Below are positions 5,134 through 32,599 of a stretch of 44,647 nucleotides of DNA, piece after piece. The translations under genes and the position numbers were made by a program. The notes under the pieces were generated by a model. That model ran no database searches and had not been told where the DNA came from. It saw only the letters and a program-made list of their open reading frames with translations. This DNA is from an uncultured Bacilli bacterium (lineage in GTDB: Bacteria; Bacillota_I; Bacilli_A; RF39; UBA660). The stretch's first letter is position 1. The number at the start of each line of letters is the position of its first letter. The stretch is taken from assembly GCA_944358355.1 (NCBI GenBank), contig CALVQY010000008.1, positions 1 through 44,647 of the forward strand. Direction: 5' to 3'.

Positions 5134-5931
5134 CTTTCTTGGAATAAAGTGTTCTATTCCTTTATATTTGTCACGTTTTTTAATATAGAAATAACCTAGG
5201 ATAGAGAAAGTTACAGCTCCTATAAAGTTAACTATTAAATCTTCCATGGTATCTACTAGACCTATATCTAGGTAACCATCTGATATTGTTATAGTATCAT
5301 TACCATAGTAAATAGTAGTTTTATTTATATCTTTAATTATCTCCGGGTCAAAAGCATTAGCATTTTTTAAGTTAACTGATGAGATTTTATTTATAACAGT
5401 ATCTTTTTGCATATCAGTATTTAAAAGGTTATCGGCAGTATATTCAAAGAATTCCCATGCTACTCCTACAGTCATAGAAAAACAAAATGCTACTAAAGCG
5501 ACGAAGATAGGGCTTAATTCTATATGAAATTTGTCGGTTCTATTTAAAATATCAATTAGAGAAAATCCTATTGCGGCTGCTAGGAAACCATTAAGAGTGT
5601 GGAGTATCATATCCCAGTTAGGAATAATATTATAGAAGTTTTGAATCTCACCTAATATTTCTGCGGAGAATATAAATAAAAGGATAATTATCTCTAAAAC
5701 ATTGGGTATCGTTACTTTTAACTTTTCTTCTACAAAGAAAGGTATTACAAATAATACTAAAGTTAAAATACATAAGAAAACATTATGGTAATTTCCCATA
5801 AAAATTTCTCTTATCATGCAAAGAATAACTAAGAATCTTAACACAGTATAAAATATGGCTACTTTTTTATTTTCTTCTTCTTTATAATATTCTATTAGTC
5901 TTTTTTTGAATTCTTTTGTTTTTTTAAACAT
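5122..5931 (-). CDS. DUF2238/YjdF-like integral membrane protein
   Basis: This 269-residue membrane protein has about seven hydrophobic segments. The central region NWDMILHTLNGFLAAAIGF (about 124-142) and the later VGVAWEFFEYTADNLL (about 175-190) hold conserved His and Glu residues in membrane-proximal positions. These are the signature of the DUF2238 (YjdF) family, whose biochemical role is not known to me. The C-terminal stretch G-L-V-D-T-M-E-D-L-I-V-N-F-I-G-A resembles the VanZ-like D-x-x-x-D-L-I-x-N motif. It diverges from der and probably shares its promoter region. Confidence 0.7.
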   Translation of the reverse strand: MFKKTKEFKKRLIEYYKEEENKKVAIFYTVLRFLVILCMIREIFMGNYHNVFLCILTLVLFVIPFFVEEKLKVTIPNVLEIIILLFIFSAEILGEIQNFYNIIPNWDMILHTLNGFLAAAIGFSLIDILNRTDKFHIELSPIFVALVAFCFSMTVGVAWEFFEYTADNLLNTDMQKDTVINKISSVNLKNANAFDPEIIKDINKTTIYYGNDTITISDGYLDIGLVDTMEDLIVNFIGAVTFSILGYFYIKKRDKYKGIEHFIPRKKKA

Positions 5932-6016
5932 AACATCACCTTTATATAATTATAGAAGATATTTAAATTTGTGTAAAGATATGATACAATATGTGAAAAG
6001 AAAGGAGATGGAACTT

Positions 6017-14514: not shown

Positions 14515-15420
14515 TTAGTTAATAATAGAAGCTTTTATTAAGTCTTTTACTTTATTTATTAAAGAGCTTCCTACTTCAGCATCTCCTATTAAAGTAATAG
14601 AAAATGTTTTATAGCCTATTCTATTTATACTGGCTCCACAGTGATAGATAATATCATCATCTAATATAAAGTATCTATCATGAAAGGTATTATCAAATAT
14701 AACTGTTAGATTGTTATATTGTTTATTATATTTTTCTATATCTTGTGAGGTTAGTAAGTTATTAGGTTTAGTGATAATTGTTACATTAATATTTAGTCTT
14801 TTTGTAATATCTAGTATTGTATTATCTGCATAAGCATCTATTATTACAAGACTCTTATTAGCACATTTAAATATCTCTTGTATTTTAGAATAAGCATCAT
14901 AAATCTGACCATTAAAATATATTTCTGTAGATTTTCTCTTTTCTTCAAGTTTACTAAATGAATCTTCTAATGCTTTTATCTTGTCATGGTCTTCTAACAC
15001 CAAATTATTTATATATTTTTGTTCAAGTAAATTAGTAGAAATATATTTTCTCATTGCTACAAAGGCATCCATTATCTGGATACTAACTTCGGTAGCAACT
15101 TTAGTTCTAAGTATTGTGGCTAACATCGCTACACCTTGTTCTGTAAAAACTCTTATATTATATCTTCTACCTCCATGCTTGTTCAAACTTGAGGTCAAAA
15201 ATTTTGACCTCAAGTCATCCATTTCTGAATCATTTAAAACAAAACTAAAACGTTCTGGAAACTTTTCAGGACTATTTCTTACTGCTTGATTAATTTCCTT
15301 AGTACCATTTTTACACTTGTAAAGTCTTGCCAAGTCACTATCTAACATTACTTGTTTACTTCTTATTTCATATATCATATTTTCTATTTTAATATCTTCT
15401 TTTGTAACAACTTCATTCAC
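14515..15420 (-). CDS. ORF6N-domain protein, tandem copy 1
   Basis: The 301-residue protein has an N-terminal ORF6N DNA-binding domain (about residues 8-125). Landmarks are K-Q-V-M-L-D-S-D-L-A-R-L-Y, N-S-P-E-K-F-P-E-R-F and R-V-F-T-E-Q-G-V-A-M-L-A. A short coiled coil (about 140-165) follows. The C-terminal domain (about 170-295) includes VIIDAYADNTILDI, H-D-R-Y-F-I-L-D and CGASINRIGYKTFSI, reminiscent of phospholipase-D-like domains with an H-x-(K/R) type motif. It is the last of three adjacent paralogues; its ribosome site (AAGGAG) lies in the end of copy 2. The AGG-TCA-rich palindrome at 15187-15215 falls in the D-L-R-S-K-F-L-T-S-S codons. Role unknown; a regulator or defence role is possible. 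Confidence 0.8.
   Translation of the reverse strand: MNEVVTKEDIKIENMIYEIRSKQVMLDSDLARLYKCKNGTKEINQAVRNSPEKFPERFSFVLNDSEMDDLRSKFLTSSLNKHGGRRYNIRVFTEQGVAMLATILRTKVATEVSIQIMDAFVAMRKYISTNLLEQKYINNLVLEDHDKIKALEDSFSKLEEKRKSTEIYFNGQIYDAYSKIQEIFKCANKSLVIIDAYADNTILDITKRLNINVTIITKPNNLLTSQDIEKYNKQYNNLTVIFDNTFHDRYFILDDDIIYHCGASINRIGYKTFSITLIGDAEVGSSLINKVKDLIKASIIN
15187..15215. repeat. palindrome inside ORF6N copy 1
   Basis: Arms ACTTGAGGTCAAAA and TTTTGACCTCAAGT are perfect over 14 bp around one central base. It lies within the ORF6N coding region and corresponds to positions 16080-16110 and 16969-16997 in the two paralogues. Confidence 0.9.
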
Positions 15421-15423
15421 TTA

Positions 15424-16314
15424 TCAGTTCTCCTTATCTATTTTCTTTATTTTATTTATTAAAGTGTTTTTTACATCTTTATCTCCTATTAAAGTAATAG
15501 AAAATGTTTTATAACCTATTCTATTTACACTGGCCCCACAGTGATAGATATTCTCATCATCTAAGATAAAATATCTATCATGAAAGGTATTATCAAATAT
15601 AACTGTTAGATTGTTATATTGTTTATTATATTTTTCTATATCTTGTGGGGTTAGTAAGTTATTAGGTTTAGTGATAATTGTTACATTAATATTTAGTCTT
15701 TTTATAATATCTAGTATTGTATTATCTGCATAAGCATCTATTATTACAAGACTATTATTAGCACTTTTAAATATCTCTTGTATTTTAGAATAAGCATCAT
15801 AAATCTGGCCATTAAAATATATTTCTGTAGATTTTCTCTTTTCTTCAAGTTTACTAAACGAATCTTCTAAAGCTTTTATCTTATCATGGTCTTCTAACAC
15901 CAAATTATTTATATATTTTTGTTCAAGTAAATTAGTAGAAATATATTTTCTCATTGTTACAAATGCATCAATAATTTTAATGCTAATATTTATTGCAGTT
16001 TCAGAGCGTAATACACTAGAAAGCATTGCAACTCCTTGCTCTGTAAATACATAGGGTTTATATCTTCTACCACCTTTTATATTTGAGGTTCCAATTTGGA
16101 ACCTCAAATAATTATATTCATCATCTGTTAATTGAAACATAAAATTAGTTGGGAATCTTTCTATATTTCTTTTTACTGCTTTATTTATATCTTTAGTACC
16201 ATTTTTACACTCGTAAAGTCTTGCCAAGTCACTATCTAACATTACTTGCTTACCCCTTATTTCATAAATCATTTTTTCTATTTTAATATCTTCTTTTGTA
16301 ACAACTTCATTCAC
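15424..16314 (-). CDS. ORF6N-domain protein, tandem copy 2
   Basis: The 296-residue middle paralogue has the same architecture as its neighbours: ORF6N domain, short coiled coil and PLD-like C-terminal domain. From about residue 130 to 280 it is nearly identical to copy 1 in protein and DNA, down to long unbroken stretches. Its ORF6N domain differs clearly, with RNIERFPTNFMFQLTDDEY in place of the copy 1 segment. Starts 1 nt upstream of the stop region of copy 3 with AAGGAG as ribosome site. The pattern suggests recent duplication or gene conversion of the C-terminal part with divergent DNA-binding domains. Confidence 0.8.
   Translation of the reverse strand: MNEVVTKEDIKIEKMIYEIRGKQVMLDSDLARLYECKNGTKDINKAVKRNIERFPTNFMFQLTDDEYNYLRFQIGTSNIKGGRRYKPYVFTEQGVAMLSSVLRSETAINISIKIIDAFVTMRKYISTNLLEQKYINNLVLEDHDKIKALEDSFSKLEEKRKSTEIYFNGQIYDAYSKIQEIFKSANNSLVIIDAYADNTILDIIKRLNINVTIITKPNNLLTPQDIEKYNKQYNNLTVIFDNTFHDRYFILDDENIYHCGASVNRIGYKTFSITLIGDKDVKNTLINKIKKIDKEN
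16080..16110. repeat. palindrome inside ORF6N copy 2
   Basis: Arms TATTTGAGGTTCCAA and TTGGAACCTCAAATA are perfect over 15 bp around a central T. It sits at the same codons as the palindromes in copies 1 and 3 (here Y-L-R-F-Q-I-G-T-S-N) but has a different sequence. Confidence 0.9.
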
Positions 16315-17196
16315 TTATCGGTTCTCCTTATCTATTTTCTTTATTTTATTTATTAAAGCGTTTTTTACATCTTCATCCCCTATTAAAGTAATAGAAAATG
16401 TTTTATAACCTATTCTATTTACACTGGCCCCACAGTGATAGATATTCTCATCATCTAAGATAAAATATCTATCATGAAAGGTATTATCAAATATAACTAT
16501 TAGATTGTTATATTGTTTATTATATTTTTCTATATCTTGTGAGGTTAGTAAGTTATTAGGTTTAGTGATAATTGTTACATTAATATTTAGTCTTTTTGTA
16601 ATATCTAGTATTGTATTATCTACATAAGCATCTATTATTACAAGATTATTATTGGCACTTTTAAATATCTCTTGTATTTTAGAATAAGCATCATAAATTT
16701 GTCCGTTAAAATATATTTCATTAACTTTCTTCTTTTCTTCTATTTTTTGAAATGAGTCTTGTAACAATTTAATTTTATATTCATGTTCTAATAGCATATT
16801 ATTTATGTAGTTTTGTTCAAGTAAATTAGTAGAAATATATTTTCTCATTGCTACAAAAGCATCCATTATCTGTATACTAGTTTCGATTGCAACTTTAGTT
16901 TTTAATACTGTAGCGAGCATGGCAACTCCTTGTTCTGTAAAAACAGTATGACCTTTTCTAGAGCCACCTTTTGAAGTCGCAATTTGCGACTTCAAAAAAT
17001 TATACTCTTCTTCAGTAATTCTAAAACAAAATCTTTCAGGAAATCTCTCTATATTTCTCTTTACAGCTTCATTTATTCTTTTTGTTTCTGTTTCATAAAG
17101 TCTTGCCAAGTCACTATCTAGCATTACTTGCTTGCCTCTTATTTCATATATCATATCTTCTATTTTAATATCTTCTTTAGTAATAACTTCATTCAT
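16315..17196 (-). CDS. ORF6N-domain protein, tandem copy 3 (first in operon)
   Basis: The 293-residue protein is the promoter-proximal member of the triplet. Its ORF6N domain reads R-L-Y-E-T-E-T-K-R-I-N-E-A-V-K-R then ERFCFRITEEEYNFLKSQI and V-F-T-E-Q-G-V-A-M-L. The coiled coil (about 130-160) has diverged more than in the other two copies, while the C-terminal PLD-like domain from about 165 is again nearly identical to them. GGAGGATT precedes the ATG. The three genes are spaced by 0-3 nt and must be cotranscribed. They sit between two acetate kinase genes, which looks like an insertion into a formerly simpler region. Confidence 0.8.
   Translation of the reverse strand: MNEVITKEDIKIEDMIYEIRGKQVMLDSDLARLYETETKRINEAVKRNIERFPERFCFRITEEEYNFLKSQIATSKGGSRKGHTVFTEQGVAMLATVLKTKVAIETSIQIMDAFVAMRKYISTNLLEQNYINNMLLEHEYKIKLLQDSFQKIEEKKKVNEIYFNGQIYDAYSKIQEIFKSANNNLVIIDAYVDNTILDITKRLNINVTIITKPNNLLTSQDIEKYNKQYNNLIVIFDNTFHDRYFILDDENIYHCGASVNRIGYKTFSITLIGDEDVKNALINKIKKIDKENR
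16969..16997. repeat. palindrome inside ORF6N copy 3
   Basis: Arms TTTTGAAGTCGCAA and TTGCGACTTCAAAA are perfect over 14 bp around a central T, encoding F-L-K-S-Q-I-A-T-S-K. It is positionally homologous to the palindromes in copies 1 and 2. Confidence 0.9.
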
Positions 17197-20410: not shown

Positions 20411-21304
20411 TTAATCAAGTGCTATTTTTTCATATTTGAAACAATATTTAATATTTTTCTTTAGTAATCTTCTTCTAGTCTTACTAACAATTCTTCTAAA
20501 GATTTTATTGTTTTTGACTTTATAATTAATACCTAAAAAAGTAAATCCTTCAGTACTCTTATATATTTTAGTTTTATTATTAAACTCTAATAAGTAATCT
20601 CTATTAACAATAGATTCTAATATTCTTAAAATATCTTTTAATCTTTCTTTATTGCTATCTATAATAATACCATCGTCCATATATCTAATATAGTATTTAC
20701 AACCTAACTCTTCTTTAATAAAGTGGTCTAAGTCATTAAGATAGAACACTGCAAGGAACTGAGAAGTATAGTTACCTATAGGCAGTCCTGTATCTTTTTT
20801 ATAGAAAGTACCCATACCTAGATTTCTAATAGTATTATTAATATAATCACTATTAGTAGTATTTAAGATATCTTTAATTAATAATAAATCTTCATTACTT
20901 AAATATTTACTTAGCTTATTAAGTAATACTTTATGACTAATATTATAGAAATACTTACTAAAATCAAATTTAAGGATATAGAAAGTACTAGATTTATTTT
21001 TAATCTTAACAAGATATTTATCTAACAAATATCTAGCATAACTAGTACCTCTACCTACTCTAGTTGCACAGTTACTATCTATTAAATACTTATCTAAAGG
21101 TAATAGAACTTTCTTACAGATAACATGATTAACTATCTTATCTTCTAAAGTACTACTCATAATAAGTCGTATCTTTTTCTCTATTATCGTAAAGATATGA
21201 TAATTACTATAAGTATAATTACCACTATTAAGTTTATCTACTAAGATATTACAATTACTATAATAGTTCTTTTCAAAGAGATATAACTTCTTCTTATTTC
21301 TAAT
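20411..21304 (-). CDS. DGR-type reverse transcriptase, no AUG at the expected start
   Basis: The protein has diversity-generating retroelement RT signatures: an N-terminal N-S-G-N-Y-T-Y-S-N-Y-H-I-F block, EDKIVNHVI, the C-A-T-R-V-G-R-G-T-S segment, the catalytic strand LKFDFSKYF, the DGR motif IGNYTSQ and the active site YMDD, then FTFLGI. In DGRs this enzyme copies template-repeat RNA into adenine-mutated cDNA. The first ATG (21160) would remove the conserved N-terminal block. The frame stays open to 21331 but offers only ATA (21316) or ATT (21304), so 21304 is a guess. About 80 residues follow YMDD, fewer than in typical DGR RTs, so the thumb may be shortened. The avd gene abuts directly upstream. 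Confidence 0.82.
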   Translation of the reverse strand: MRNKKKLYLFEKNYYSNCNILVDKLNSGNYTYSNYHIFTIIEKKIRLIMSSTLEDKIVNHVICKKVLLPLDKYLIDSNCATRVGRGTSYARYLLDKYLVKIKNKSSTFYILKFDFSKYFYNISHKVLLNKLSKYLSNEDLLLIKDILNTTNSDYINNTIRNLGMGTFYKKDTGLPIGNYTSQFLAVFYLNDLDHFIKEELGCKYYIRYMDDGIIIDSNKERLKDILRILESIVNRDYLLEFNNKTKIYKSTEGFTFLGINYKVKNNKIFRRIVSKTRRRLLKKNIKYCFKYEKIALD

Positions 21305-21318: not shown

Positions 21319-21660
21319 TTAAAGTCGGCTTTCACTTTTAATCCATCCATATATTAATTTAGTAATTGTAATATATTTCTTACTTATAGATATATATTTA
21401 TCTTTAGATATTTCTTTATAAGTATAAAGTTTATAATAGTAATAATCTAACAATTTAACTTCCACTAACATTTTTCTTTGAATATAGATTCTTTTAGGTC
21501 TTTCTAGAGTATTAGTATAATATAAGTAATAAAGTAATTTATAATTAGAGTCTATTATATTATTCTTAAGTGTTTTATATTTATTATTAATATTTAAAAC
21601 TATTCTTTCAGTAATAGCATCTATTTCTTTAAGTTTATTTTCTAAAACAAAACTACTCAT
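21319..21660 (-). CDS. avd: Avd-like DGR accessory protein
   Basis: This 113-residue basic protein is all helical and ends ISKKYITITKLIYGWIKSE. That end matches the L-(G/I)-G-W-I-K-S close of Avd four-helix-bundle proteins, and R-K-M-L-V-E-V-K-L-L-D-Y-Y-Y-Y-K-L fits the middle helices. Avd forms a barrel-shaped pentamer that binds the RT and template RNA and is needed for mutagenic retrohoming. It lies directly before the RT, as usual. Its start codon overlaps the stop region of the upstream small gene (ATGAGTAG context), with GGAG as ribosome site. High pI and position support the call; sequence similarity by eye is limited. Confidence 0.75.
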   Translation of the reverse strand: MSSFVLENKLKEIDAITERIVLNINNKYKTLKNNIIDSNYKLLYYLYYTNTLERPKRIYIQRKMLVEVKLLDYYYYKLYTYKEISKDKYISISKKYITITKLIYGWIKSESRL

Positions 21661-21991
21661 AAAATTTCTCCATTTTAGAGATAATTTCTTCTATATTATC
21701 TAAGTATAAACAATTTTTTAGATTAGTAGATAACTTATCTATTCTATAAGATAACTTACCATATTCTAAATATTTAGAATATTTATTATCTTTAAAAATA
21801 ATAGGTTTATCATAGTAATAATTAATATGACATTTATTTAATAAAGTTATTAATCCATTCATTGAATTCCTTTCAATGTAAAATGTATCTTTATAAGTTT
21901 TATCTAATAGATAACTAACAATATAACTATCATTTCTATTTACATAAATCATTACTCCTTTACGTTTAAAGTAAACTAAATTATATTCCAT
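21653..21991 (-). CDS. small DGR-linked protein, possibly MutS domain I-like
   Basis: This 112-residue protein precedes avd and overlaps its start, so it belongs to the DGR operon. Its layout LVYFKRKGVMIYVNRNDSYIVSYLL followed by a region L-I-T-L-L-N-K-C-H-I-N-Y-Y recalls MutS N-terminal (mismatch-recognition) domains, in which a K-x-G-x-x-Y-x-x-x-x-x-D-A pattern precedes a helix and strand. MutS-like accessory genes occur in some DGRs. No key F-x-E motif is visible, so this is tentative. The start at 21991 is favoured because AGGAG lies 10 nt upstream; ATG 22000 would be too close. The TR should lie just upstream of this gene once the RIT elements are removed. Confidence 0.5.
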   Translation of the reverse strand: MEYNLVYFKRKGVMIYVNRNDSYIVSYLLDKTYKDTFYIERNSMNGLITLLNKCHINYYYDKPIIFKDNKYSKYLEYGKLSYRIDKLSTNLKNCLYLDNIEEIISKMEKFYE

Positions 21992-22053
21992 TTTTATCAT
22001 TCTCCTATCTTTCCCTTAATGTATCAAAAAAAATTATGTTGAGTTTAACATAA

Positions 22054-22146
22054 TTTTTTTTATGTGAAGTATTTAATTATGTTAAGTTTTTTTAAGAAGT
22101 CCTTATAAAACAAAGACTTCTTTCTTTTTTTCTTAACATAATTTTT
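22054..22146 (+). repeat. left terminal inverted repeat of RIT 1
   Basis: Runs from a T-rich start through TATGTGAAGTATTTAATTATG and ends CTTAACATAATTTTT. The inverted counterpart is at 25126-25221 with a few mismatches near the outer part and one length difference in the T-run. It contains an inner inverted pair AAGAAGTCC... / ...GACTTCTT. Confidence 0.85.
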
Positions 22147-22189
22147 GTTAATATTATATTGTATTCATAAAATAAGGAGGATGATAGAT

Positions 22190-23176
22190 ATGAGTACAAT
22201 ACAAACAAAAGACTCTACAAAAAGAGTAACTGAATTTATAAAGAAAGGAGGAGATATTTTTAATAATCAAATAGATAATAGAATCTTTAAAGGATATTAT
22301 AATTATCTAGTTAGCTTAGGAAATAAAGAAAATTCTATTATAATAAAGTTAAGATTTGTTTATTTATTAGAACAGTACTTACTCTCATATAATAAAAATT
22401 TTAAGACATCTACCAAAGAAGATATTTATAATTATTTTTTTGAATGCTCTAAATTAACATCTTGGAGTCTTGGAGAAATGGATCATAATAAATGGAATAT
22501 TAAAAAGTTTTATAATTGGTCTTATCAAAATAATTATACAAAAATATCCGGAGATATGATTATTCCAAAAATTGTGTGGCATAGAAATACTAATATTAAA
22601 ACATATTATTCTAAAGATGAAATTTCTAAATTATTAAATGCTATTAATATAAAAACTAAAAAAGGAAAAGAAGATTATTTAATAATAAGTATAATTTGTT
22701 ATCTAGGTTTAAGAATAAGTGATGTTATTAACTTAAAATTAAGTGATATTGATTTTAATAATAATACTATTTCCATTATTCAATATAAAACAGACAATCA
22801 ATTGACTTTGCCTCTAATTGATAAAATAAAATATCCATTAATTGATTATTTAAAAAACGTTAGACCTACTGATACTAATTTAGATTATATTTTTTTAACA
22901 AGTAATAAGCCATATCAGCATAATATAAAGCTAAAAAAACATAATTATATTGTAAAAAACTATTTAATTAAGGCTGGAGTTAATATTAATGGAAGAAAAC
23001 ATGGATTTCATGCACTAAGACATAGTTTTGGTACTATGCTTTTAAGTGAGAACGTTTCATTATATTCAATATCTACTATATTAGGACATAGTCATATAGG
23101 AACAACAATGACATATTTAGATATAGATGTATCTAAGCTTAAAGAACTTGCTTTGGAGGTTCCTTATGTTAAATAA
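22190..23176 (+). CDS. tyrosine recombinase, first of RIT 1 trio
   Basis: The 328-residue protein has a core-binding N-terminal domain (about 1-130) and a catalytic domain. The catalytic residues are visible: Arg in YLGLRISDV, the HALRHSFG box (His and Arg), LGHSHIGTT and the nucleophilic Tyr in TYLD. It is the promoter-proximal gene of the trio. The start at 22190 is chosen because AGGAGG sits 9 nt upstream; an in-frame ATG at 22145 has no ribosome site. It overlaps the next gene by 11 nt. Confidence 0.9.
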   Translation: MSTIQTKDSTKRVTEFIKKGGDIFNNQIDNRIFKGYYNYLVSLGNKENSIIIKLRFVYLLEQYLLSYNKNFKTSTKEDIYNYFFECSKLTSWSLGEMDHNKWNIKKFYNWSYQNNYTKISGDMIIPKIVWHRNTNIKTYYSKDEISKLLNAINIKTKKGKEDYLIISIICYLGLRISDVINLKLSDIDFNNNTISIIQYKTDNQLTLPLIDKIKYPLIDYLKNVRPTDTNLDYIFLTSNKPYQHNIKLKKHNYIVKNYLIKAGVNINGRKHGFHALRHSFGTMLLSENVSLYSISTILGHSHIGTTMTYLDIDVSKLKELALEVPYVK

Positions 23177-24128
23177 TTATGAATTTAAAAGCATATTTAA
23201 AGACGAACTTAACTATTTTATTAAATATAAACGTAGTCTAGGATTTAAATATGAAAATGAAGTATATAGATTAAGACGTCTAGATTATATTCTAGTGGTT
23301 TTAAAAATAAAATCTAAAAAAATAACCAGAGAAATATTTTATGAATTAATAAACAATAATGACAAACATGGCGAAAATTATGCTAGTCAATATAGAGTTA
23401 CAAAAGATTTTTGTAAGTTCTTAATTTCAAATGGTTATAAGAATATATATTATGAAGATAAGAAGTTTAAGATAATAAATAATTATAAACCTATTTTATT
23501 TACAGATAATGAAATAATTAAACTATTTAAAGCTATGGATGAATATTCTAATTGTAGTGAAGATGAAAAAAGGTATTTTATTTATTACTCATATTCTATA
23601 TTATTTAGACTAATATATAGTTGTGGATTAAGAATTTCTGAAGTAATTAAAATAAATATAGAGGATATTAATTTTAATGAAAATACAATTAACATCATTG
23701 ATTCTAAAAGATATATATCCAGGATAGTAGTTTTTTCTAAAAGTATGAAAAGATGTTTAGAAACTTATTTGAAAAAATTTGAAATAAAAAAAGGGTTATT
23801 ATTTAAAGATGTTAACGGAAATAAAATAAAGCCATATAAACTAAGAGATTATTATAAGATTATATTAGAAAATGCTAATTTGAATATAAATTCCCATATT
23901 CATGATCTTCGCCATTGTTTTTGCAATAAAGCCTTTAATCAAATGCTAGAAAAAGGATATGATGAGAATGTTGTTATAATTTATCTTTATAAGTATATGG
24001 GGCATAAACGTATTACTGAAACTGAATACTATCTACATTTTACTGACTACAATAAAAACAAATTACTAAATATAAATGACTCTTTTTCTAAATATTTATA
24101 TGAAGGAGTTGAATTAGATAATGATTAA
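23166..24128 (+). CDS. tyrosine recombinase, second of RIT 1 trio
   Basis: The 320-residue protein opens MLNNYEFKSIFKDELNYFI, whose style closely matches the second recombinase of RIT 2 (MMNFNSIFKEEIVSYI). Catalytic signatures are SCGLRISEV, HIHDLRHCF, YMGHKRITETE and YYLH. The start at 23166 has GGAGG 6 nt upstream, inside the end of the first gene; an earlier in-frame ATG at 23127 has none. The overlap implies coupled translation so that all three recombinases are made together. Confidence 0.9.
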   Translation: MLNNYEFKSIFKDELNYFIKYKRSLGFKYENEVYRLRRLDYILVVLKIKSKKITREIFYELINNNDKHGENYASQYRVTKDFCKFLISNGYKNIYYEDKKFKIINNYKPILFTDNEIIKLFKAMDEYSNCSEDEKRYFIYYSYSILFRLIYSCGLRISEVIKINIEDINFNENTINIIDSKRYISRIVVFSKSMKRCLETYLKKFEIKKGLLFKDVNGNKIKPYKLRDYYKIILENANLNINSHIHDLRHCFCNKAFNQMLEKGYDENVVIIYLYKYMGHKRITETEYYLHFTDYNKNKLLNINDSFSKYLYEGVELDND

Positions 24129-25119
24129 TAGATTCAGCAAATTACTTCAACAATTTCTAACGAGCTATATTATGGGAGAATGTAATTACTCAGTTAATAC
24201 AAAGGCTTCTTATTCAACTACTTTCTATTTATTATTAGTGTTTTTGAAAAAAGAGAAAAATATTAATCCAAATAAAATAGAAATTGAATTAATTACTAAA
24301 GATTTAATTATTCAATTTCTTGACTGGTTAGAAACACAAAGACATGTTTCTATACGCACACGGAACCAACGACTTGCAGCAATTAAATCGTTTTATAAAT
24401 ATGTTCAAATAAATGAGCCAGATTTACTTGACACATGTTTAAATATTCTTAGTATTAAGAACAAAAAGGTTCCTAATAAAATGATATCATATTTCTCTGA
24501 AGAAGAAATGAAATTAATGATAAATTATTTAAATGAAGCAAAAAATTTAAAATTACTAACAATGATATGTGTTCTTTATGAAAGTGCATCTAGAGTTTCT
24601 GAATTTATAAGTATTAAATTAGATGATTTAAATTTAAATGAGAATGCAACTATTACACTGCATGGAAAAGGTAATAAAACTAGAATTATTCCAATTAGTA
24701 AAGAATTAGCAATGCTTATAAATAAATATTTAAAAGACTCTTATATTAATTATGGTGATGATTATTTATTCTATTCTAATCAAAAGAAAAAATACAGCAG
24801 ATTTGGAATAAATTATATTATAAATCAATTAGTCAAAAAATTACATTTAATATATCCAAACTATTTTAATGGCAATTACCATCCACATTCTATTAGACAT
24901 ACTAAAGCGACACATTTATATAATAATAGTACTCCATTATTATATATTAAAGATTTCCTCGGGCATAGCACTATAACTTCTACTGAAATATATGCAACTC
25001 CTGATATGAAAAAAGAAAGACAAGAAATCTTAAAAAATGCTCAAGAATTAGATGTGAAAAATAAATATTCGAAAGATAAGAAAGATGCATTAGATGATTG
25101 GCTAAAGAAAAATATGTAA
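24121..25119 (+). CDS. tyrosine recombinase, third of RIT 1 trio
   Basis: The 332-residue protein has Q-R-L-A-A-I-K-S-F-Y in its N-terminal domain, a segment shared with the third gene of RIT 2. The catalytic domain follows: ESASRVSEF with the first Arg, H-P-H-S-I-R-H-T-K-A, FLGHSTITSTE and IYATPD with the Tyr. It overlaps the second gene by 8 nt, and AAGGAG precedes its ATG. The C-terminal tail is strongly charged. Confidence 0.9.
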   Translation: MINRFSKLLQQFLTSYIMGECNYSVNTKASYSTTFYLLLVFLKKEKNINPNKIEIELITKDLIIQFLDWLETQRHVSIRTRNQRLAAIKSFYKYVQINEPDLLDTCLNILSIKNKKVPNKMISYFSEEEMKLMINYLNEAKNLKLLTMICVLYESASRVSEFISIKLDDLNLNENATITLHGKGNKTRIIPISKELAMLINKYLKDSYINYGDDYLFYSNQKKKYSRFGINYIINQLVKKLHLIYPNYFNGNYHPHSIRHTKATHLYNNSTPLLYIKDFLGHSTITSTEIYATPDMKKERQEILKNAQELDVKNKYSKDKKDALDDWLKKNM

Positions 25120-25125
25120 TGTTCT

Positions 25126-25221
25126 AAAAATTATGTTAAGAAAAAAAGAAAGAAGTCTTTGTTTTATAAGGACTTCTTTAAAAAATTAACATAACTAAAT
25201 ACTTCACATAAAAAAAAAAAA
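25126..25221 (-). repeat. right terminal inverted repeat of RIT 1
   Basis: Reverse complement of 22054-22146 apart from scattered mismatches and a longer A-run. It begins 6 nt after the third recombinase stop. Confidence 0.85.
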
Positions 25222-25456
25222 TCAAGCATATTTGTAAATTTATGTGTTTTACATAAATTTGCTATTATACTTGACATAAACTATTGGACTAACCTTTCCT
25301 TTAGTTTTATAGGGTCAGATAGTGTATAAATAGTTTCATAAATATTTACAATTCTATTATCTATCTAGTCTTTAGTGTTTTAACACAAGGAAATTACCTG
25401 TTCCTTTTATCTATTCTATATAGTTATTAACCATAATGCTAGGTTTAAAAGTAAAT
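25222..25456 (-). other. non-coding spacer, presumed part of DGR template RNA
   Basis: No open frame of note lies here. Near the RIT 1 end, AAATTTATGT and ACATAAATTT pair around a 5-nt loop (about 25238-25262), inside a looser outer pair TCAAG/CTTGA. The rest has no recognised motif. Position between TR and accessory genes fits the spacer that in known DGRs is transcribed with the TR and helps prime cDNA synthesis. RIT 1 separates it from the operon. Confidence 0.45.
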
Positions 25457-25499
25457 GCCGAACGCCGTTCGCATTGGACGGGCTATTGTTGTTCGCGTT
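25457..25499 (-). repeat. DGR template repeat, 3' part (43 nt)
   Basis: On the coding (minus) strand this is the 3' segment of the template repeat, with AAC/AAT codons and the invariant GGCGTTCGGC end. Against VR1 (29116-29158) it differs at six positions, and against VR2 at six. All differences are at A on the coding strand (T on the plus strand). The repeat breaks off at 25499 where the RIT 2 inverted repeat begins. Confidence 0.93.
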
Positions 25500-25580
25500 A
25501 TAGGACAAAATAAATTATGAGACAAAAAGATAATAATTGTTGAAATTACTATCTTTTTTTGTATTTTTTGTCTGATAATA
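25500..25580 (+). repeat. left terminal inverted repeat of RIT 2
   Basis: Begins ATAGGACAAAATAAATTATG. The inverted copy at 28788-28868 matches over 81 nt with two mismatches. Both ends are preceded by TTCGC(G/A)TT, extending the symmetry outward. Confidence 0.93.
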
Positions 25581-25638
25581 TATAATATTCTCTTGAAAAG
25601 TTTGATTCAGCTTTTCAAAGGGAGAGGATGTGATAGAA

Positions 25639-26880
25639 ATGAATCAAAAAATAAGAAAATTAATGTATCATAGTGAGGAGGTGTTAATGAACAATAATTT
25701 TTCTTTGGACAAAGTAAGTAAATTAAAAAAGCATTGGAAACAATTTAAAGTTTATTGTGAAGAAAATGATATATTGAGTTTTACCAATCAAACAATATAT
25801 TCTTTTCTACTTGAAAAATATAACATTAATTTTAATGAACAAAATACATTATCAAAAGAAGAAAATAAAATCGTAGAATCTATGAAAGCACTTATTAATA
25901 TAGATGATTTTGTTATGAATTATTTAAGTTCTATTAAAGTTAATAGAGGAATAATTTTATCGAATTATTATAGTGGCTTATTAGACAATTACTTAAGTTA
26001 TTGTAAAGACGTTTTAAATAATAAGGAGACTACTATTAAAGACAAACAAGTATTAATAAAAAACTTCTTTTATTATTTAGAAAATAAAAATGTAACAAAT
26101 ATTGAAAATATGGATAAAGATGTCATTAACAAGTATCTTGAAGATAATACTGAGCCATTATCAAGAAGAATTAGTATTTGTTGGAGCTTAAGATGCTTAT
26201 TCAATTATTTATTTACAGAAGAATTAGTACAAATTAATTATGAATATCTTATACCAGTTGTTAACAGAAATACTAAAAGTAGTTTACCAACTGTTTTTGA
26301 AAAAGAAGACGTAGAAAAAATATTAGACTATCTAAAATATGATACAACTAGCACGGCTAGCAGAAGACATTATGCAATGATTTTAATTGCTGCAAGATTA
26401 GGATTAAGAGGAATAGATATTAAGCATTTAAAGTGGTCTGATATAAATTGGAATGAGAAAACAATATATATAATTCAAGAAAAAACTAATAAACCTGTTA
26501 AATTACCTTTAACAAATGATATTGGTGATGCCATTATAGATTATATTAAATATGAAAGGCCATTTAAGATTAAGAAAGAAAATGACTATATTTTTATAAG
26601 ACATATATTCCCATATATTAAGTTAAGTGATTCCTTTTCATTTAATCATATAATAAAACGAGTTGCTAATAAAACAGGAATAGATTTATCGAAGTATGAA
26701 AAAAAAGGAATACATTCATTTAGAAGAACACTTGCAACTAGCTTACTAAATGATAATATTCCCATAACAACTATATCATCAACACTAGGCCATTGCAATA
26801 TAGATTCAACTAAACAATATTTAAGAACTAATGAAAAGAACTTAATCAAGTGTTTTTGCGAGGTCGATGATGAATTTTAA
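25639..26880 (+). CDS. tyrosine recombinase, first of RIT 2 trio
   Basis: The 413-residue protein is longer than its RIT 1 counterpart because of an extended N-terminal region (SAM-like helices to about residue 215). The catalytic domain has ARLGLRGIDI with the first Arg, KGIHSFRRTLATSLL (His and Arg), LGHCNIDSTK and YLRT with the Tyr. The start is uncertain: ATG 25639 keeps the helix expected before the core-binding domain, but ATG 25687 has the best ribosome site (AGGAGG, 5 nt spacing) and GTG 25630 is also in frame. The 3' end overlaps the second gene by 14 nt. Confidence 0.88.
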   Translation: MNQKIRKLMYHSEEVLMNNNFSLDKVSKLKKHWKQFKVYCEENDILSFTNQTIYSFLLEKYNINFNEQNTLSKEENKIVESMKALINIDDFVMNYLSSIKVNRGIILSNYYSGLLDNYLSYCKDVLNNKETTIKDKQVLIKNFFYYLENKNVTNIENMDKDVINKYLEDNTEPLSRRISICWSLRCLFNYLFTEELVQINYEYLIPVVNRNTKSSLPTVFEKEDVEKILDYLKYDTTSTASRRHYAMILIAARLGLRGIDIKHLKWSDINWNEKTIYIIQEKTNKPVKLPLTNDIGDAIIDYIKYERPFKIKKENDYIFIRHIFPYIKLSDSFSFNHIIKRVANKTGIDLSKYEKKGIHSFRRTLATSLLNDNIPITTISSTLGHCNIDSTKQYLRTNEKNLIKCFCEVDDEF

Positions 26881-27820
26881 TAGTATATTTAAAGAAGAAA
26901 TAGTATCTTATATAAATTATAAGAAAAGTAATGGTTATTCCTTTAAATCTGAGATTGAAAAACTCAAAAATTTAGATAAATATTTAGTTGAAAATAATAT
27001 AAAAGAAAAAAAATTAACAAAAGAGCTAGTTATATCATTTATAGATAGCCACAAAGCAAGAAGTAAAACAGTTACTTTAGCATCTTATGCTAGTTTAATT
27101 AGGCAATTTGCAATATATTTATGTAGAATTGAAATTGATGCTTATATTATTCCAATAAATTATTATAGTGCTAAAAGGAACTTTATACCTTATATTTATA
27201 CAGATAATGAAATAAAATCTATTTTTACTACAATAAAAGAAAAATATTCTAACAATAATATTAGAAAGAAAAAACAAGTGTATCTAATATTCAAATTACT
27301 ATTTGGAACAGGTATGCGTATAAGTGAAGTACTTAATTTAAAATGTAAAAATATAAATTATGTAAAAAATAGTCTCAAAATAGAAGATACTAAAAATAAT
27401 TGTGATAGATTAATAATAGTAAGTGATAATTTAATTAAAGAACTACAAGATTATAATAAAGAATATAATAATGGCTTTGAATACTTTTTTGAAAATAGGA
27501 TTAATACCAAATATACAGTAGGGGACTTTTATTCTATATTTCGAAAAATTATTTTTAAGGCTAAAATCATGCATTTTGATAATGGACCAAGAGTACATGA
27601 TATTCGCCATACTTTTGCTGTTAATTCATATAGAAATGCAATTAAGAAAGGCTTTGATATAAATAATTATGTAGTTACTTTAGGTGTGTATATGGGACAT
27701 AAAACAGTATGTTCAACATATAAATATTTACATTTAACTATTGAATACTATCCGAATTTAAAAGAAAAAATAGGAAATATTATTACATTAGAAAAGGAGA
27801 TAGATTATGAAGATTTATAA
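26867..27820 (+). CDS. tyrosine recombinase, second of RIT 2 trio
   Basis: The 317-residue protein resembles the second recombinase of RIT 1 in both halves. Catalytic signatures are GTGMRISEVLNLK, R-V-H-D-I-R-H-T-F-A, YMGHKTVCST and KYLH. The spacing Y-M-G-H-K before the Tyr segment is shared with the RIT 1 gene. It overlaps both neighbours by 14 nt. An ATG at 26870 is equally possible. Confidence 0.9.
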   Translation: MMNFNSIFKEEIVSYINYKKSNGYSFKSEIEKLKNLDKYLVENNIKEKKLTKELVISFIDSHKARSKTVTLASYASLIRQFAIYLCRIEIDAYIIPINYYSAKRNFIPYIYTDNEIKSIFTTIKEKYSNNNIRKKKQVYLIFKLLFGTGMRISEVLNLKCKNINYVKNSLKIEDTKNNCDRLIIVSDNLIKELQDYNKEYNNGFEYFFENRINTKYTVGDFYSIFRKIIFKAKIMHFDNGPRVHDIRHTFAVNSYRNAIKKGFDINNYVVTLGVYMGHKTVCSTYKYLHLTIEYYPNLKEKIGNIITLEKEIDYEDL

Positions 27821-28784
27821 TATTACAGAAGCTTTATCAAGTTATTTTAATAATTATTTAAGACTACAAAAGAATGTAAGTAATAATACAATTATTTCTT
27901 ACAAATATACTTTTAAGTCATTAATTAAATATTTGATTACTAATAATATTACTACCTTAAAAGATTTTTCATTTAATGATTTTACAAGAGAAAATATTCT
28001 TGATTTCTTAAATGATGTAGAAAGTAAAACGTCTATATCTACTAGAAATCAAAGACTTGCTGCTATTAAATCTTTTTGTCAGTATTTACAATATGAGCCT
28101 ATAGAACATTTGACACAAATACAAAGAATATTAAAAATAAGAATGAAAAAATTTTCTGCTAAAGAAATAGACTTTTTAACAAAAGAAGAATTAACTTTAT
28201 ATTTAAATTCGATAGATATAGACAATAAAAAAGGCGTTAGAGATTATACATTAATTTCATTCATGTATGAAACTGGCTCTAGAATAAATGAGGTAGTTAA
28301 TGTAAAAATATGCGATTTACAGTTAGATGATAATTATAATGTTCTACTACATGGAAAAGGAAATAAATTAAGGAGGGTGCCTATAACAAATGAATTGAGG
28401 AATATGCTTTTAAAGTATATCAAAGCATTTAAATTAAATAGTACCTCTTATTTATTCCAAGGACAGAAAAATCAAAAATCATCAACAAAAATGATTACGC
28501 ACATTGTAAATAAGTATGCAAGTAAATCAAAAATAAATAAAAACATTCATCCACATGTTTTTAGACATACTAGGGCAATGCATTTATTAGAAGCGGGACT
28601 TACTTTAGTTGACATAAGAGATATTTTAGGGCATGTTTCTGTTAAAACTACAGAGATATATCTTAAAATAAATATAGAACTTAAAAGAAATGCAATATTA
28701 AATGTCTATGAAAATAATGATAGATTTGAAGAGCCAAGTTGGATTAAGGATGAAAATGTATTAAAAGATTTATTAGACTTATAA
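27807..28784 (+). CDS. tyrosine recombinase, third of RIT 2 trio
   Basis: The 325-residue protein contains the N-terminal segment TRNQRLAAIKSFCQY, nearly the same as in the third gene of RIT 1. Catalytic motifs are ETGSRINEVVNVK, HPHVFRHTRAMHLLEAG, ILGHVSVKTTE and IYLK. AAGGAG sits before the ATG. The right inverted repeat starts 3 nt after the stop. Confidence 0.92.
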   Translation: MKIYNITEALSSYFNNYLRLQKNVSNNTIISYKYTFKSLIKYLITNNITTLKDFSFNDFTRENILDFLNDVESKTSISTRNQRLAAIKSFCQYLQYEPIEHLTQIQRILKIRMKKFSAKEIDFLTKEELTLYLNSIDIDNKKGVRDYTLISFMYETGSRINEVVNVKICDLQLDDNYNVLLHGKGNKLRRVPITNELRNMLLKYIKAFKLNSTSYLFQGQKNQKSSTKMITHIVNKYASKSKINKNIHPHVFRHTRAMHLLEAGLTLVDIRDILGHVSVKTTEIYLKINIELKRNAILNVYENNDRFEEPSWIKDENVLKDLLDL

Positions 28785-28787
28785 ATT

Positions 28788-28868
28788 TATTATTAGACAA
28801 AAATTACAAAAAAAGATAGTAATTTCAACAATTATTATCTTTTTGTCTCATAATTTATTTTGTCCTAT
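28788..28868 (-). repeat. right terminal inverted repeat of RIT 2
   Basis: Inverted copy of 25500-25580 over 81 nt with two mismatches, ending GTCCTAT. Confidence 0.93.
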
Positions 28869-28904
28869 AATGCGAATTATAAGACATGTCTTATAATTCG
28901 TATT
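28869..28904. repeat. palindrome between RIT 2 and the 5' part of the TR
   Basis: CGAATTATAAGACA and its complement form an uninterrupted 28-nt palindrome, flanked by AATG and TATT. The outer TTCGTATT resembles TTCGCGTT at the left junction and the inverted TTCGCATT at the inner side, so three related 8-mers mark the crossover points. Confidence 0.85.
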
Positions 28905-28940
28905 GCCATTGTTGTTCACGTTCCACACGTTAGACGTACT
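28905..28940 (-). repeat. DGR template repeat, 5' part (36 nt)
   Basis: Coding-strand 5' part of the TR. Joined to 25457-25499 it gives 79 nt: 26 codons plus one base, eleven codons being AAC or AAT. Against VR1 (29159-29194) there are seven differences, all at coding-strand adenines. Confidence 0.93.
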
Positions 28941-29029: not shown

Positions 29030-30958
29030 TTAACTTCCTAACTGTATTTCAAAAGGTGAATTCAAGGTCCCATCACCATTTAAAATTTGCACGTTAGATT
29101 TTAGATTTAAAGAAGGCCGAACGCCGTCCGCATTGGACGGGCCATCGTCGTACGCGCTGCCACTGCCGCTCACGTTCCACACGAGAGACGAACTATATGG
29201 TGTTAAAGTCCAATAGTATGTATTATTTCCATATCTATCAAACTGACCTGACATTAATTCTCCAAATCTTAATAATCCTGCTTTAGCATCTGTTGTAGAT
29301 GAATTTGTACTACTCATATTGGTATCTGCATATTTTGCTAGTTTATATGAAGTGCCACTTCCTACTGTTCCTAGATACCAAGTGGTACTATCTTCTATCA
29401 TATCACTATATGTACTATCAACGTAATTTGTTAAATAGTCTCCGTTCAGGAATGCCCCTATTGTATTTGTACTTGAAAATGTTGTATTACTTCCAAAGGC
29501 ACTTGTTATAAAAGTTCCAGAACTCTTTAACGGTTCGGCACTTACTATTTTTGTACCACTACCATTTTCATGACTTACTATTCTATATAGATTATTTTCC
29601 TCATTTCCAAATCTTATATATTCTCCACTATACCTACTTGACAACAATGTTCCTGAAAGATTAGTATCATTATCTCCGTTTAAGCGATAAGGATTATCTA
29701 TTGTTCCATCCCCACTCACGATACGAACGCTAGATTTTAGATTTACAGATGGCCGAACGCCGTACGCACTGGACGGGCTATCGTAGTTCGCGCGGCCAGC
29801 GATGTTGCTCACGAGCCACACGTAAGACGTACTATATGGTGTTAAGGTCCACCAATAAAGTCCATTATTCAAATAGCCAGTTGAACTGCTTGCTCCTCTA
29901 TAACTTGTTACATACTCATAATAATTTAGTAAACCTACTGCATCAGTTACTATTGTCGTTTCTGCTGGCTTACTTGATGAGGTAGTCAAAGTAGCATTCC
30001 ATTTAGCATCTGTTACAATAAAATTCTCATAATCCCTTAAATTACCTAAGAAGCCATCAATACTTGTATCATTTAGCCACTCTTCCATATAACTTCCTGC
30101 AAAGTCTGTACTACCACTTGAATAATTAATTGCACTTATATTCCACTGTGTTACTAACTTAGTTGTCTTTGCTTCATTATTTACACTCACCGCTCTCCAT
30201 AACTTTCCGCTATACCAGATATAATTATTAGGGTCTGTTCCTGTTATAAAAGTATCTGTTCCATCATCATAAGTATCCCCATTATCTCCTACGTTTGCTA
30301 ATACTACTTCACTTACTGGGTCACCTTGGGTGTTAACTCCATTAACTACTATCTTTCCATGATAATGTTTATTTAAAACATCATTTCCTACTCCTTCTCT
30401 TATCCATACATATAGAGTATAGGTAACACTTCCTCCTGCTTCAAGAGAACCTGTTGCTATCTTATAGTTAGAGTCAGCTATTGATGATAGATTAGCAGGT
30501 GCTGCTGTATCTAGCTTATATCTTATATAATCTTTATTTAATTGGATATTCGCACAGTTTTCTTCTTCGTTATTAATCATATCTAAATCATCTTGTATAA
30601 ATACTTCATAATCTGCTGCTAAACTTCCTGTATTTTTTATTGTAAATACATATGGTTTTAATTTTAATCCTTCTTCATCAGACATAGGGTATTGTCCTGA
30701 TAGGTTGATATTATTACTACTATCTTCTCCAAAGTCTATATTTAATGTTCCTACTTTTATAACATTATAATCAGCTGACTTTGATACTGATGTAAAGACA
30801 GCATAGGCGCTACCTAGAGATATTATAGTTACACCTAATATTGAAAATAATGTTAATAATAATTGTCTTTTAGCCATTTTAGTTAGTGCTACTTCTTTGA
30901 AGTTATATTCTTCTATCTTTTCTTTAGTAATTTTTTTTCTATTATTAAATCTCTTCAT
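29030..30958 (-). CDS. DGR target: membrane-anchored protein with two variable lectin-like domains
   Basis: This 642-residue protein begins with a basic cytoplasmic stretch and one membrane segment (about 35-55, LLLTLFSILGVTIISLGSA). A camelysin/TasA-like beta region follows, K-V-G-T-L-N-I-D-F to about 200. Two related C-terminal domains with the DUF6273-like pattern come next: about 215-415 and 420-642. Each ends Y-W-x-L-T-P-Y-S, a variable stretch, then G-V-R-P-S-x-N-L-K-S. The variable stretches are the DGR variable repeats. It is probably surface-displayed, binding varied ligands. The start at 30958 (ATG) is preferred over GTG 30970, which adds four residues; the ribosome site is weak. 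A promoter lies just upstream. Confidence 0.85.
   Translation of the reverse strand: MKRFNNRKKITKEKIEEYNFKEVALTKMAKRQLLLTLFSILGVTIISLGSAYAVFTSVSKSADYNVIKVGTLNIDFGEDSSNNINLSGQYPMSDEEGLKLKPYVFTIKNTGSLAADYEVFIQDDLDMINNEEENCANIQLNKDYIRYKLDTAAPANLSSIADSNYKIATGSLEAGGSVTYTLYVWIREGVGNDVLNKHYHGKIVVNGVNTQGDPVSEVVLANVGDNGDTYDDGTDTFITGTDPNNYIWYSGKLWRAVSVNNEAKTTKLVTQWNISAINYSSGSTDFAGSYMEEWLNDTSIDGFLGNLRDYENFIVTDAKWNATLTTSSSKPAETTIVTDAVGLLNYYEYVTSYRGASSSTGYLNNGLYWWTLTPYSTSYVWLVSNIAGRANYDSPSSAYGVRPSVNLKSSVRIVSGDGTIDNPYRLNGDNDTNLSGTLLSSRYSGEYIRFGNEENNLYRIVSHENGSGTKIVSAEPLKSSGTFITSAFGSNTTFSSTNTIGAFLNGDYLTNYVDSTYSDMIEDSTTWYLGTVGSGTSYKLAKYADTNMSSTNSSTTDAKAGLLRFGELMSGQFDRYGNNTYYWTLTPYSSSLVWNVSGSGSAYDDGPSNADGVRPSLNLKSNVQILNGDGTLNSPFEIQLGS
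29116..29194 (-). repeat. DGR variable repeat VR1 (C-terminal domain)
   Basis: 79 nt, same length as the joined TR, differing at 13 positions. All 13 are adenine positions of the TR on the coding strand. It encodes N-V-S-G-S-G-S-A-Y-D-D-G-P-S-N-A-D-G where the TR has mostly Asn codons. Confidence 0.95.
29752..29833 (-). repeat. DGR variable repeat VR2 (internal domain)
   Basis: 82 nt. The substitutions relative to the TR (about eleven) are all at coding-strand adenines in my alignment, plus one in-frame 3-nt insertion near the middle. It encodes L-V-S-N-I-A-G-R-A-N-Y-D-S-P-S-S-A-Y-G. Confidence 0.92.
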
Positions 30959-30985
30959 TATAATCAACACCCTATCTTTATGTAT

Positions 30986-31048: not shown

Positions 31049-32599
31049 ATCCCGTTTGTGTATAAATTTAAATTTGGATATCCCGAATAGAAATAACTCA
31101 TATACATTAACCTATAGTACAATGTTTTTGTTGAGAAAATTATGTATGGAGGTATGTATATGAGTCGTAATTATTCTAACAAAAATCTAACTATATTAGA
31201 ACTAGGTAATATTGAATTTTACTTAAATGATGGTAAAAGTCCAGCAGAAATCGGTAAAATTTTAAATAGAGGTCCATCAGGTATTAGAAAAGAAATAAAA
31301 CATTACTCTTCTTATTTTGGTGTTGCAAGAAAATGTTCTAATTGTCTGAACAAAGATAATTGCCACCAAAAATTTCTCTGTGAAAATATTATAGATAAAC
31401 TAAAATGTTCTCAATGTAAATTTTGTGTTAATGCAGTTAAATATTGTCCTAATTATAAAGTTGAAAATGATTGTGAATTGTTAAAGAAAAATCATCACGT
31501 TTGTAATGGATGCGAACTTTATCACAAATGTAAAAAAGTAAAAATAAAGTATCAGGCTGAAACTGCAATAAAAAAACATGATATTGTACAAAGAGTTTCT
31601 AGAACTGATACTAAAGCTGATAAAGTTCCACAAGATTATAAAAATTATTTATCAGATAGAATAAAAAAAGGAATTTCACCAGATATTATTTTAAATACTT
31701 TACCTGAAAAATATAAAATGTTTAAAATATCAACACCTACTTTATATGATTGGATTGATAAAGGTTTACTTGATTGTTGTAATCTTGATTTAAGAAATAA
31801 AGTATCAAGAATACGTTATGGTTCAAATACACTTAAAAGGAATATGTTAAAGGCCATCAATTAAATGGAAGAAGTATTGAAAATTTAACTCAAGAGGAAA
31901 GAGAAAAAAGACCATTAGGTATTGCAGAGTTTGATACTGTTGAAGGCATTAAAGGCGGAGAACTATTATTTACGATTATGATTCCTTGTTTCTCTTTAAT
32001 GTTAGCCTTTAAAATAAAACACAAAACACAAGAAGAAATAGGAAGAATATTAGATGAACTAGAAAGAAAGTTAGGACGATATTTTTATATTTTATTTCAT
32101 AAAGCAATTCCTGACAATGGTGGTGAATTTACTGACTTTTTAATATTAGAAACTTCTATTTACAAAGATTTAGAAAAAAGATTAAAAGTATATTATACAC
32201 ATACTTATGCATCTTATGAAAAACCACATATAGAAAATAATCATATCTTATTAAGATGGTTAATAAAAAAAGGATATGACATTACATTATTGTCTTCAAA
32301 TGACATATTAAGTATTATTAATAGATTAAATAATTATCCACGTCCAACCAAAGAATATAAAACGACGTTACAATTATTAGAAGAAAAATTAGGGTATGAA
32401 ATATTGGAACTTTTGGATTTACACCATATTCCAATAGAAGAATTAAATATGAAAGACACAATATTAAAAAATCAAGAGCGAATGAAATGAGTTCATCTAG
32501 ACTCTTGATTTTTTAATTTGTGTGATTAGGATTAATTTTACCAACAAAGTTCACCTTTGTTGCTTATCAATTAATAAAATCGGGATATCCAAACGGGAT
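31049..32599 (+). mobile_element. IS30-family insertion sequence
   Basis: Inverted ends are ATCCCGTTTG (31049) and CAAACGGGAT up to 32599. Inside, TTTGGATATCCCGA also recurs inverted at both ends. The left copy carries about 17 extra bases between the two parts. It encloses one frameshifted IS30-type transposase gene. It lies about 35 nt upstream of the promoter of the DGR target gene, pointing away from it. Confidence 0.8.
31160..32490 (+). pseudogene. IS30-family transposase with a frameshift
   Basis: The N-terminal part (31160-31864) has an HTH region S-P-A-E-I-G-K-I-L-N-R-G-P-S-G-I-R-K-E-I, a run of paired cysteines (C-S-N-C, C-K-F-C, C-N-G-C) and S-P-D-I-I-L-N. Near 31840-31864 the sense shifts by -1 to GRSIENLTQEEREKR, and the rest of the DDE core follows: EFDTVEG (first Asp), PDNGGEF (second Asp) and KPHIENNH (Glu), ending at 32490. 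No standard slippery heptamer is visible, so the frameshift is probably an inactivating indel. The start at 31160 has GGAGG 7 nt upstream. Confidence 0.8.

Follow-up and report, generated by a model that had tools for sequence, protein, structure and literature searches.

A clade of RIT elements recurs at one point within the template repeat of diversity-generating retroelements

We analyzed a 44,647-nt stretch of DNA (the window) from an uncultured Bacilli bacterium (assembly GCA_944358355.1, contig CALVQY010000008.1; host assembly 1.5 Mb, 93% complete). The window holds a diversity-generating retroelement (DGR) whose template repeat (TR) is split by a recombinase-in-trio (RIT) element, here called RIT2. 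The RIT clade of this element probably recognizes the TR as its attachment site, because relatives of the element, or their end sequences, occupy the same TR point in another six species of this genus and in two lineages outside it. Position, palindrome and short cores recur from locus to locus, and near-identical element DNA is found in divergent hosts. This is repeated, position-specific insertion by a RIT clade and not a single accident.

The DGR lies on the minus strand in the order target gene, TR, 240-nt conserved spacer, accessory open reading frame (ORF), Avd-like ORF and reverse transcriptase (RT), with coordinates given in Table 1. A sequence-only reading of the same DNA had proposed that two separated segments are the halves of one 79-nt TR. 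Our alignment confirms this, since the joined halves, read in the sense direction (minus strand), fit variable repeat 1 (VR1) without gaps. All 24 substitutions in VR1 and VR2 combined fall at TR adenines, the signature of a DGR, with p = 3e-7 for VR1 and p = 3e-6 for VR2 if mismatches were random over the 25 adenines among the 79 TR positions. The RT contains LPIGNYTSQ, with the SQ dipeptide in motif 4 that marks DGR-type RTs, and YMDD. VR2 carries one extra codon, which may stem from slippage within AAC repeats by multiples of three, as discussed in PMC12875486. The spacer is also recognizable in two more distant loci, at 76-79% identity over short stretches. Another TR accounting for VR1 and VR2, which the sequence-only reading named as the finding that would overturn it, was not found in the host assembly: the left half with its arm matched elsewhere only VR1 and VR2, and the right half was not searched alone. 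The genome encodes two further RTs (on C36, 45% identity, and C46, 39%), whose TRs were not traced.

The TR halves are separated by 3405 nt, in which three overlapping tyrosine-recombinase ORFs run on the plus strand; the sequence-only reading had likewise placed three recombinases there. PF00589 is present in all three, neighboring ORFs overlap by 14 bp each, and the proteins pair A-A, B-B and C-C, in order, with those of the RIT of plasmid pHG1. The catalytic motif of tyrosine recombinases is R...HxxR...H...Y. We recognized it by eye in all three proteins; a regular-expression scan recovered HxxR in A, B and C and missed or misplaced the other motifs. RIT elements have an inverted repeat with an overlapping palindrome, according to a passage of PMC3414803, and RIT2 shows both the flanking inverted repeat and a palindrome overlapping one end. 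Its arms are 96% complementary and measure 84 nt, or 92 nt if the 8 nt overlapping the TR edge are counted. The inverted repeats of the sequence-only reading (81 nt there) are confirmed, but its 36-nt palindrome is in fact an 8-bp core, a 20-bp perfect palindrome and a second 8-bp core. The VRs hold a single core copy. The left core fits VR1 and VR2 and the outer core fits neither, suggesting that the outer core was probably carried in by the element; it is identical to the core of the intact TR in genome G001.

The same junction recurs in other genomes. We scanned the genus (35 genomes, including that of the window) for the 20-bp palindrome, allowing up to 2 mismatches, and found a single copy in each of 7 genomes, all seven within a TR at the identical position; a reversed-pattern control gave no match. 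Genome G009 (contig G009:C20) carries a whole RIT between the TR halves on one contig, 89.6% identical to RIT2 over 3201 nt, and the two loci align over 5 kb including the RIT at 84.9% identity. In G020 the TR halves and their adjoining arms are found on separate contigs. A single TR half with palindrome and arm is present in each of G002, G010 and G012, joined in G002 and G010 by part of the genes, and G032 shows one TR half with the palindrome but without an arm.

Two loci extend the pattern beyond the genus. In L144, where RitC is 56% and the RT 42% identical to those of the window, a RIT sits between the TR halves beside an RT, an Avd-like ORF, accessory ORFs and two identical VRs. The flanks of this RIT, matched to the VR, overlap by exactly the 8-bp core, and 13 of the 14 mismatches fall at adenines. 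In G328 (genus g86; RitC 46% identical) a RIT likewise lies between TR halves, beside RT and accessory ORFs, and a VR elsewhere in the genome crosses the junction without a gap. Whole RITs between both TR halves on one contig are thus present in the window, G009:C20, L144 and G328 (L123). A degenerate form of the palindrome, sought in 386 genomes of the family, was found in six (window, G009, G328, G199, G167 and G196). Altogether, 12 loci of the clade or palindrome have readable flanks, and 9 of these lie in a TR matched by homology. RITs in G024 and L145 have no flanks.

Outside cellular genomes, homology searches returned 4 matches in viral contigs at 22-27% identity, 14 phage records (37% identity at best among the 10 matches listed) and 447 plasmid records, all below 60% identity. 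A protein search yielded 475 matches at E ≤ 1e-60; the 120 listed carry no genomic context. As a separate observation, the RITs L075, L124, L128 and L151 form lone contigs of 3.3-3.5 kb whose termini coincide with the outer arm ends to within a few bases, as if their flanks varied within the population.

Relatives also show what the site looks like when it is empty. An RT match at E ≤ 0.001, weak ones counted, is present in 32 of the 35 genus genomes. We fetched 30 spacer-containing loci (one match, G013:C49, was not fetched), of which 7 lack the spacer-end motif that we scanned for. The 23 readable loci comprise 19 contiguous TRs, three that run into a RIT arm (window, G009 and G020) and one with another insertion; intact TRs, which the sequence-only reading had named as a check, do occur in relatives. 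Two of the contiguous TRs (L082 and L087) carry a short deletion, and G009, G010, G012 and G032 hold contiguous TRs elsewhere as well. Separately, in G002:C1 (L043, about 346-1850) a transposase-bearing insertion, judged by eye, interrupts a TR in its 3' half.

Comparison of element and host DNA indicates that the element moves. Between G009 and G010, identity reaches 99.4% for ritA, compared with 82.8% for the RT regions, which lie on other contigs, and 73.8% for the flanking VR genes. Near-identical ritA in hosts with divergent RT regions implies movement of the element, and the uninterrupted sites in relatives complete this comparative evidence. Over 3201 nt the RIT of the window matches that of G024 at every position; in the arms, the sole difference is that the two core versions have exchanged places between the ritA and ritC sides.

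Orientation and target sequence point to a specific site. In each of the nine homology-matched loci, the palindrome is on the TR half that is 5' in the sense direction. The gene adjoining it varies: it is ritC in four loci (window, G009, G002, L144) but ritA in G010, G328 and the TR-like locus of G199, the orientation being unreadable in G020, G012 and G032. A common motif, GTSAACAACAAYGGYAACGNGAACAACAA, surrounds the insertion point in the TRs; it is altered in several loci, most strongly in L144 and G328 and in the G010 and G002 outer cores. The probable attachment site is this AAC-rich TR core in its unmutated form. At 8 of 29 positions VR1 departs from the site as it stands in the window. 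Among the loci examined we saw no RIT in a VR, although no dedicated search was made, and VRs are likely free of RITs because mutagenesis altered the adenines of the site itself.

These features are consistent with the following mechanism. The recombinases would act on an excised circle in which the ends meet as arm-core-palindrome-core-arm, and one core of the circle would recombine with its 8-bp counterpart in the TR motif GTSAACAACAAYGGY|AACGNGAA|CAACAA. As this junction would be symmetric, either core could be used, which would leave the palindrome always on the 5' side and the gene block in either orientation. Inversion between the two inverted cores may alternatively produce the two orientations. 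Once the element is in place, reverse transcription starting from the spacer would meet the 3.4-kb RIT after 43 nt of TR, so that no cDNA with both homology ends would be made and hypermutation would stop. On excision, exchange at the outer cores is predicted to make the TR contiguous again, with a core that may be altered.

Table 1. Coordinates and supporting evidence for the features of the window and for RITs in RT genes of other loci
Feature	Position	Strand	Evidence or remark
TR 5' half (sense)	28905..28940 (36 nt)	-	joined halves fit VR1, A-only mismatches
TR 3' half (sense)	25457..25499 (43 nt)	-	joined halves fit VR1, A-only mismatches
Conserved TR spacer, 3' of TR	25217..25456	-	87-97% identity to relatives
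VR1	29116..29194	-	13/13 mismatches at TR adenines
VR2	29752..29833	-	11/11 mismatches at TR adenines, one extra codon
DGR target gene with VR1 and VR2	29030..30970	-	PF19789 (DUF6273) E 1.7e-9
DGR RT, downstream part, frame broken near start	20411..21160	-	RVT_1 E 3.6e-19
Avd-like accessory gene	21319..21660	-	PF22296 bAvd E 0.0037, below its cut-off
Second accessory ORF, on the TR-spacer side of avd	21653..22000	-	DNA conserved in relatives; no Pfam match
Left 8-bp core of RIT2 (TTCGCGTT), common to TR	25492..25499	.	version fitting VR1 and VR2
Left (ritA-side) inverted arm, RIT2	25500..25583	+	96% complementary to 28785-28868
ritA of RIT2	25630..26880	+	PF00589 E 8e-31; collinear with pHG1 RIT
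ritB of RIT2, overlaps ritA	26867..27820	+	PF00589 E 2.5e-20; collinear with pHG1 RIT
ritC of RIT2, overlaps ritB	27807..28784	+	PF00589 E 2e-33; collinear with pHG1 RIT
Right (ritC-side) inverted arm, RIT2	28785..28868	-	complementary to left arm
Inner core of RIT2 (AATGCGAA)	28869..28876	.	sequence reading
20-bp perfect palindrome TTATAAGACATGTCTTATAA	28877..28896	.	one copy each in 7/35 genus genomes, always in TR
Outer core of RIT2 (TTCGTATT)	28897..28904	.	no fit to VR1 or VR2
RIT1, second RIT	22034..25217 (approx.)	+	A-tract between TR spacer and accessory ORF; ORFs 22145-23176, 23127-24128, 24121-25119
RT-splitting RIT in L150	~1405-4840		homology on one side, by eye on the other
RT-splitting RIT in L152	~3674-7111		homology on one side, by eye on the other
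RT-splitting RIT in L126	~1047-4441		by eye, one side

We then compared the condition of split and intact DGRs through their VRs, removing matches shorter than 40 nt or above 97% identity. At non-adenine VR positions, 4 split loci show 5 changes among 375 sites and 7 intact loci 41 among 761; the pooled split count leaves out TR-half self-matches, G328 and G167, and includes two L144 VRs that are identical and hence not independent. The intact set derives from nine contiguous loci, of which L036 and L048 returned no VR rows. By their sequences, the split loci look recently active. The rest of the locus is often damaged. In the window, the RT has a 17-nt frameshifting deletion near its start (around 21323/21324), as judged against three aligned relatives; all six relatives compared keep an open frame. 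G020 has no RT, Avd or accessory match within 5.6 kb on the spacer side of its split TR, and a transposase-like ORF, recognized by eye, follows the spacer. Most of the G032 locus is lost, and its RT contains the 3' end of a group II intron (L053/L076, 831-904; Rfam RF00029, E 2.5e-9), by eye near the YMDD codons. The RIT of G010 is cut off by istA/istB-like genes. Conversely, L144 and G328 (L123) retain long, open RT and accessory ORFs; the bAvd profile matches the L144 homolog at E 1.5e-6, below cut-off, and has no match in the G328 ORF.

Several observations weigh against a dedicated TR site. Three of the 12 loci with readable flanks fall outside the homology-matched TRs. L142, with a RitC 93% identical, joins an ATPase-type-looking ORF on its one readable side and is counted as an exception, even though it belongs to the TR group of the RitC tree described below. 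G167 was rejected as a TR case and is treated as ambiguous, the mismatches of the seven similar loci tested not being biased toward adenines, and G199, which resembles a TR on one side only, is kept as TR-like, with no VR found. Near the degenerate palindrome of G196 there is no match to a RIT, an RT or a target gene. Only 4 of the 9 TR loci show a whole RIT between both halves: the genes are partial in G010 and G002, arm and palindrome alone are seen in G020 and G012, and the palindrome alone in G032; a close ritC was not found in G010, G012:C48, G020 or G032. The G328 VR is weakly adenine-biased (13 of 26 mismatches, p 0.05), and adding this genome (13/59) raises the figure for split loci from 5/375 to 18/434. 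Every split locus comes from a contig-level assembly, and the evidence for recombination is comparative.

The RitC phylogeny places the TR insertions in the context of other DGR-associated RITs. The tree has 35 rows (L155, L158 and L159 were extracted but left out), with TR, RT and VR-end labels assigned from flanks and 25 rows unlabelled. The four TR rows fall within one group of nine (89/92), together with the TR-like G199, the ambiguous G167, the exception L142 and two rows that lack flanks. The sister of this group (joined at 99/98) is made up of RITs located where target-type genes end (3') and of five rows whose context is unknown. The 3'-end RITs lie in or next to NPFTL-type end codons in L136 (7427) and L139 (5970), both by homology, and L125 (3941), by eye; DUF6273 is above cut-off in the L136 gene and below it in that of L139. 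In a separate group, RITs split DGR-type RT genes at the LP/IG codons of motif 4. The target-gene-end and RT patterns count three loci each, and the nearly identical RitC proteins of L150 and L152 do not represent independent elements.

These groups raise a broader reading, which we consider rather unlikely, in which DGRs are a specialized niche of RITs, with related clades that each have their own attachment site (the TR, target-gene 3' ends or RT motif 4), and the TR clade acts as a reversible off-switch that flips and excises through its 8-bp cores. Improbable, too, is the version in which the RIT is a domesticated switch that leaves and re-enters the TR in hosts that gain from toggling hypermutation. 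The contiguous TR can be restored on paper by outer-core exchange, the gene block occurs in both orientations, and the window and G024 differ only by the core swap; moreover, the VRs of split loci are fresh and the RT and accessory ORFs of L144 and G328 are still open. Against this stand the broken RT frame of the window, the missing genes of G020, the loss and intron of G032 and the truncated RIT of G010, and no genome was seen with both the empty and the filled state of one locus. Since insertion is often accompanied by decay, a switch is possible at best, and the earlier proposal that precise excision alone would turn hypermutation back on finds no support in the window genome, where the RT frame is broken as well.

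That a single insertion in an ancestral TR was inherited vertically and has decayed since is very improbable. Such an origin would explain the position and palindrome common to the genus loci and the 5-kb alignment of the window with G009 across the RIT. It does not account for ritA genes more alike than their hosts' RT regions in G009 and G010, for contiguous TRs elsewhere in four of the affected genomes, for differing gene-block orientations, or for TRs of other lineages hit at the same point by elements with RitC only 46-56% identical. Insertion without specificity, hitting the TR by chance with DGRs as a tolerated place, has in its favor that RIT1 lies in an A-tract outside the TR and that L142 lies beside an unrelated ORF, but nine loci at one point of a repeat of about 80 bp in genomes of about 1.5 Mb, with the palindrome always on the same TR half, make it scarcely credible. 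An assembly artefact joining RIT to TR is extremely improbable: the assemblies are contig-level, inverted arms can mislead assemblers and several RITs stand alone on 3.3-3.5-kb contigs, but the junction type appears in different samples and naming schemes (BRZ_HM NODE_2131, BRZ_NS NODE_2079, E02 k127_2886466), each time with the TR of its own host.

The probable recognition of the TR by a RIT clade combines two parts that are each of a known kind in a fixed pairing that is new. RIT elements as described in passages of PMC3414803 and PMC10214605 share with RIT2 the overlapping ritA-ritB-ritC genes, a size of about 3.4-3.5 kb and inverted ends of which one bears a palindrome. They differ in arm length (28-34 bp there, 84 nt in RIT2), and RIT2 has a fixed target, the DGR TR. 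A 2023 table in PMC10214605 lists the target specificity, empty site and movement of RITs as untested; the genome comparison presented here addresses the three together. Like known DGRs, that of the window has an RT with the SQ signature in motif 4, a candidate Avd-like gene and a TR whose VRs vary solely at its adenines; it differs in having its TR interrupted by a mobile element. Part of the DiGReF survey (PMC3521204) describes recently inactivated RTs, through insertion elements, frameshifts or stops, with VR/TR pairs still differing at adenines only. There the RT was hit, whereas here a single element clade has struck the template several times over, always at the same point. We found no report of a RIT paired with a DGR template among the open-licence PubMed Central papers listed, in agreement with the sequence-only reading, which knew of no described case.

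Tn916-type integrases have variable coupling sequences, short cores that differ between the ends and travel with the element. RIT2 resembles them in its mobile, end-specific cores and differs in its three recombinases, palindromic end and fixed target. For DGR biology, the hypermutation template emerges as a likely target of a mobile element. The TR site must remain adenine-rich to function, and VR copies likely escape through mutation. The insertions offer a testable model for the natural loss, and perhaps the pausing, of hypermutation. Related clades at the ends of target genes and within RT genes suggest that the specialization is broader.

The window contains a second RIT, RIT1, which is absent at the corresponding place in relatives. 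RIT1, the RT deletion, the uninterrupted TRs of relatives and the same insertion in other genomes did not figure in the sequence-only reading. A RitC 98% identical to that of RIT1 occurs in G264, adjoining an A-tract. Elsewhere in the window, positions 31142-32490 hold two ORFs resembling pieces of an IS30-type transposase, of which the first gives a weak, sub-threshold HTH_38 match and the second none, and positions 14515-17196 hold three tandem ORF6N-domain paralogs (PF10543).

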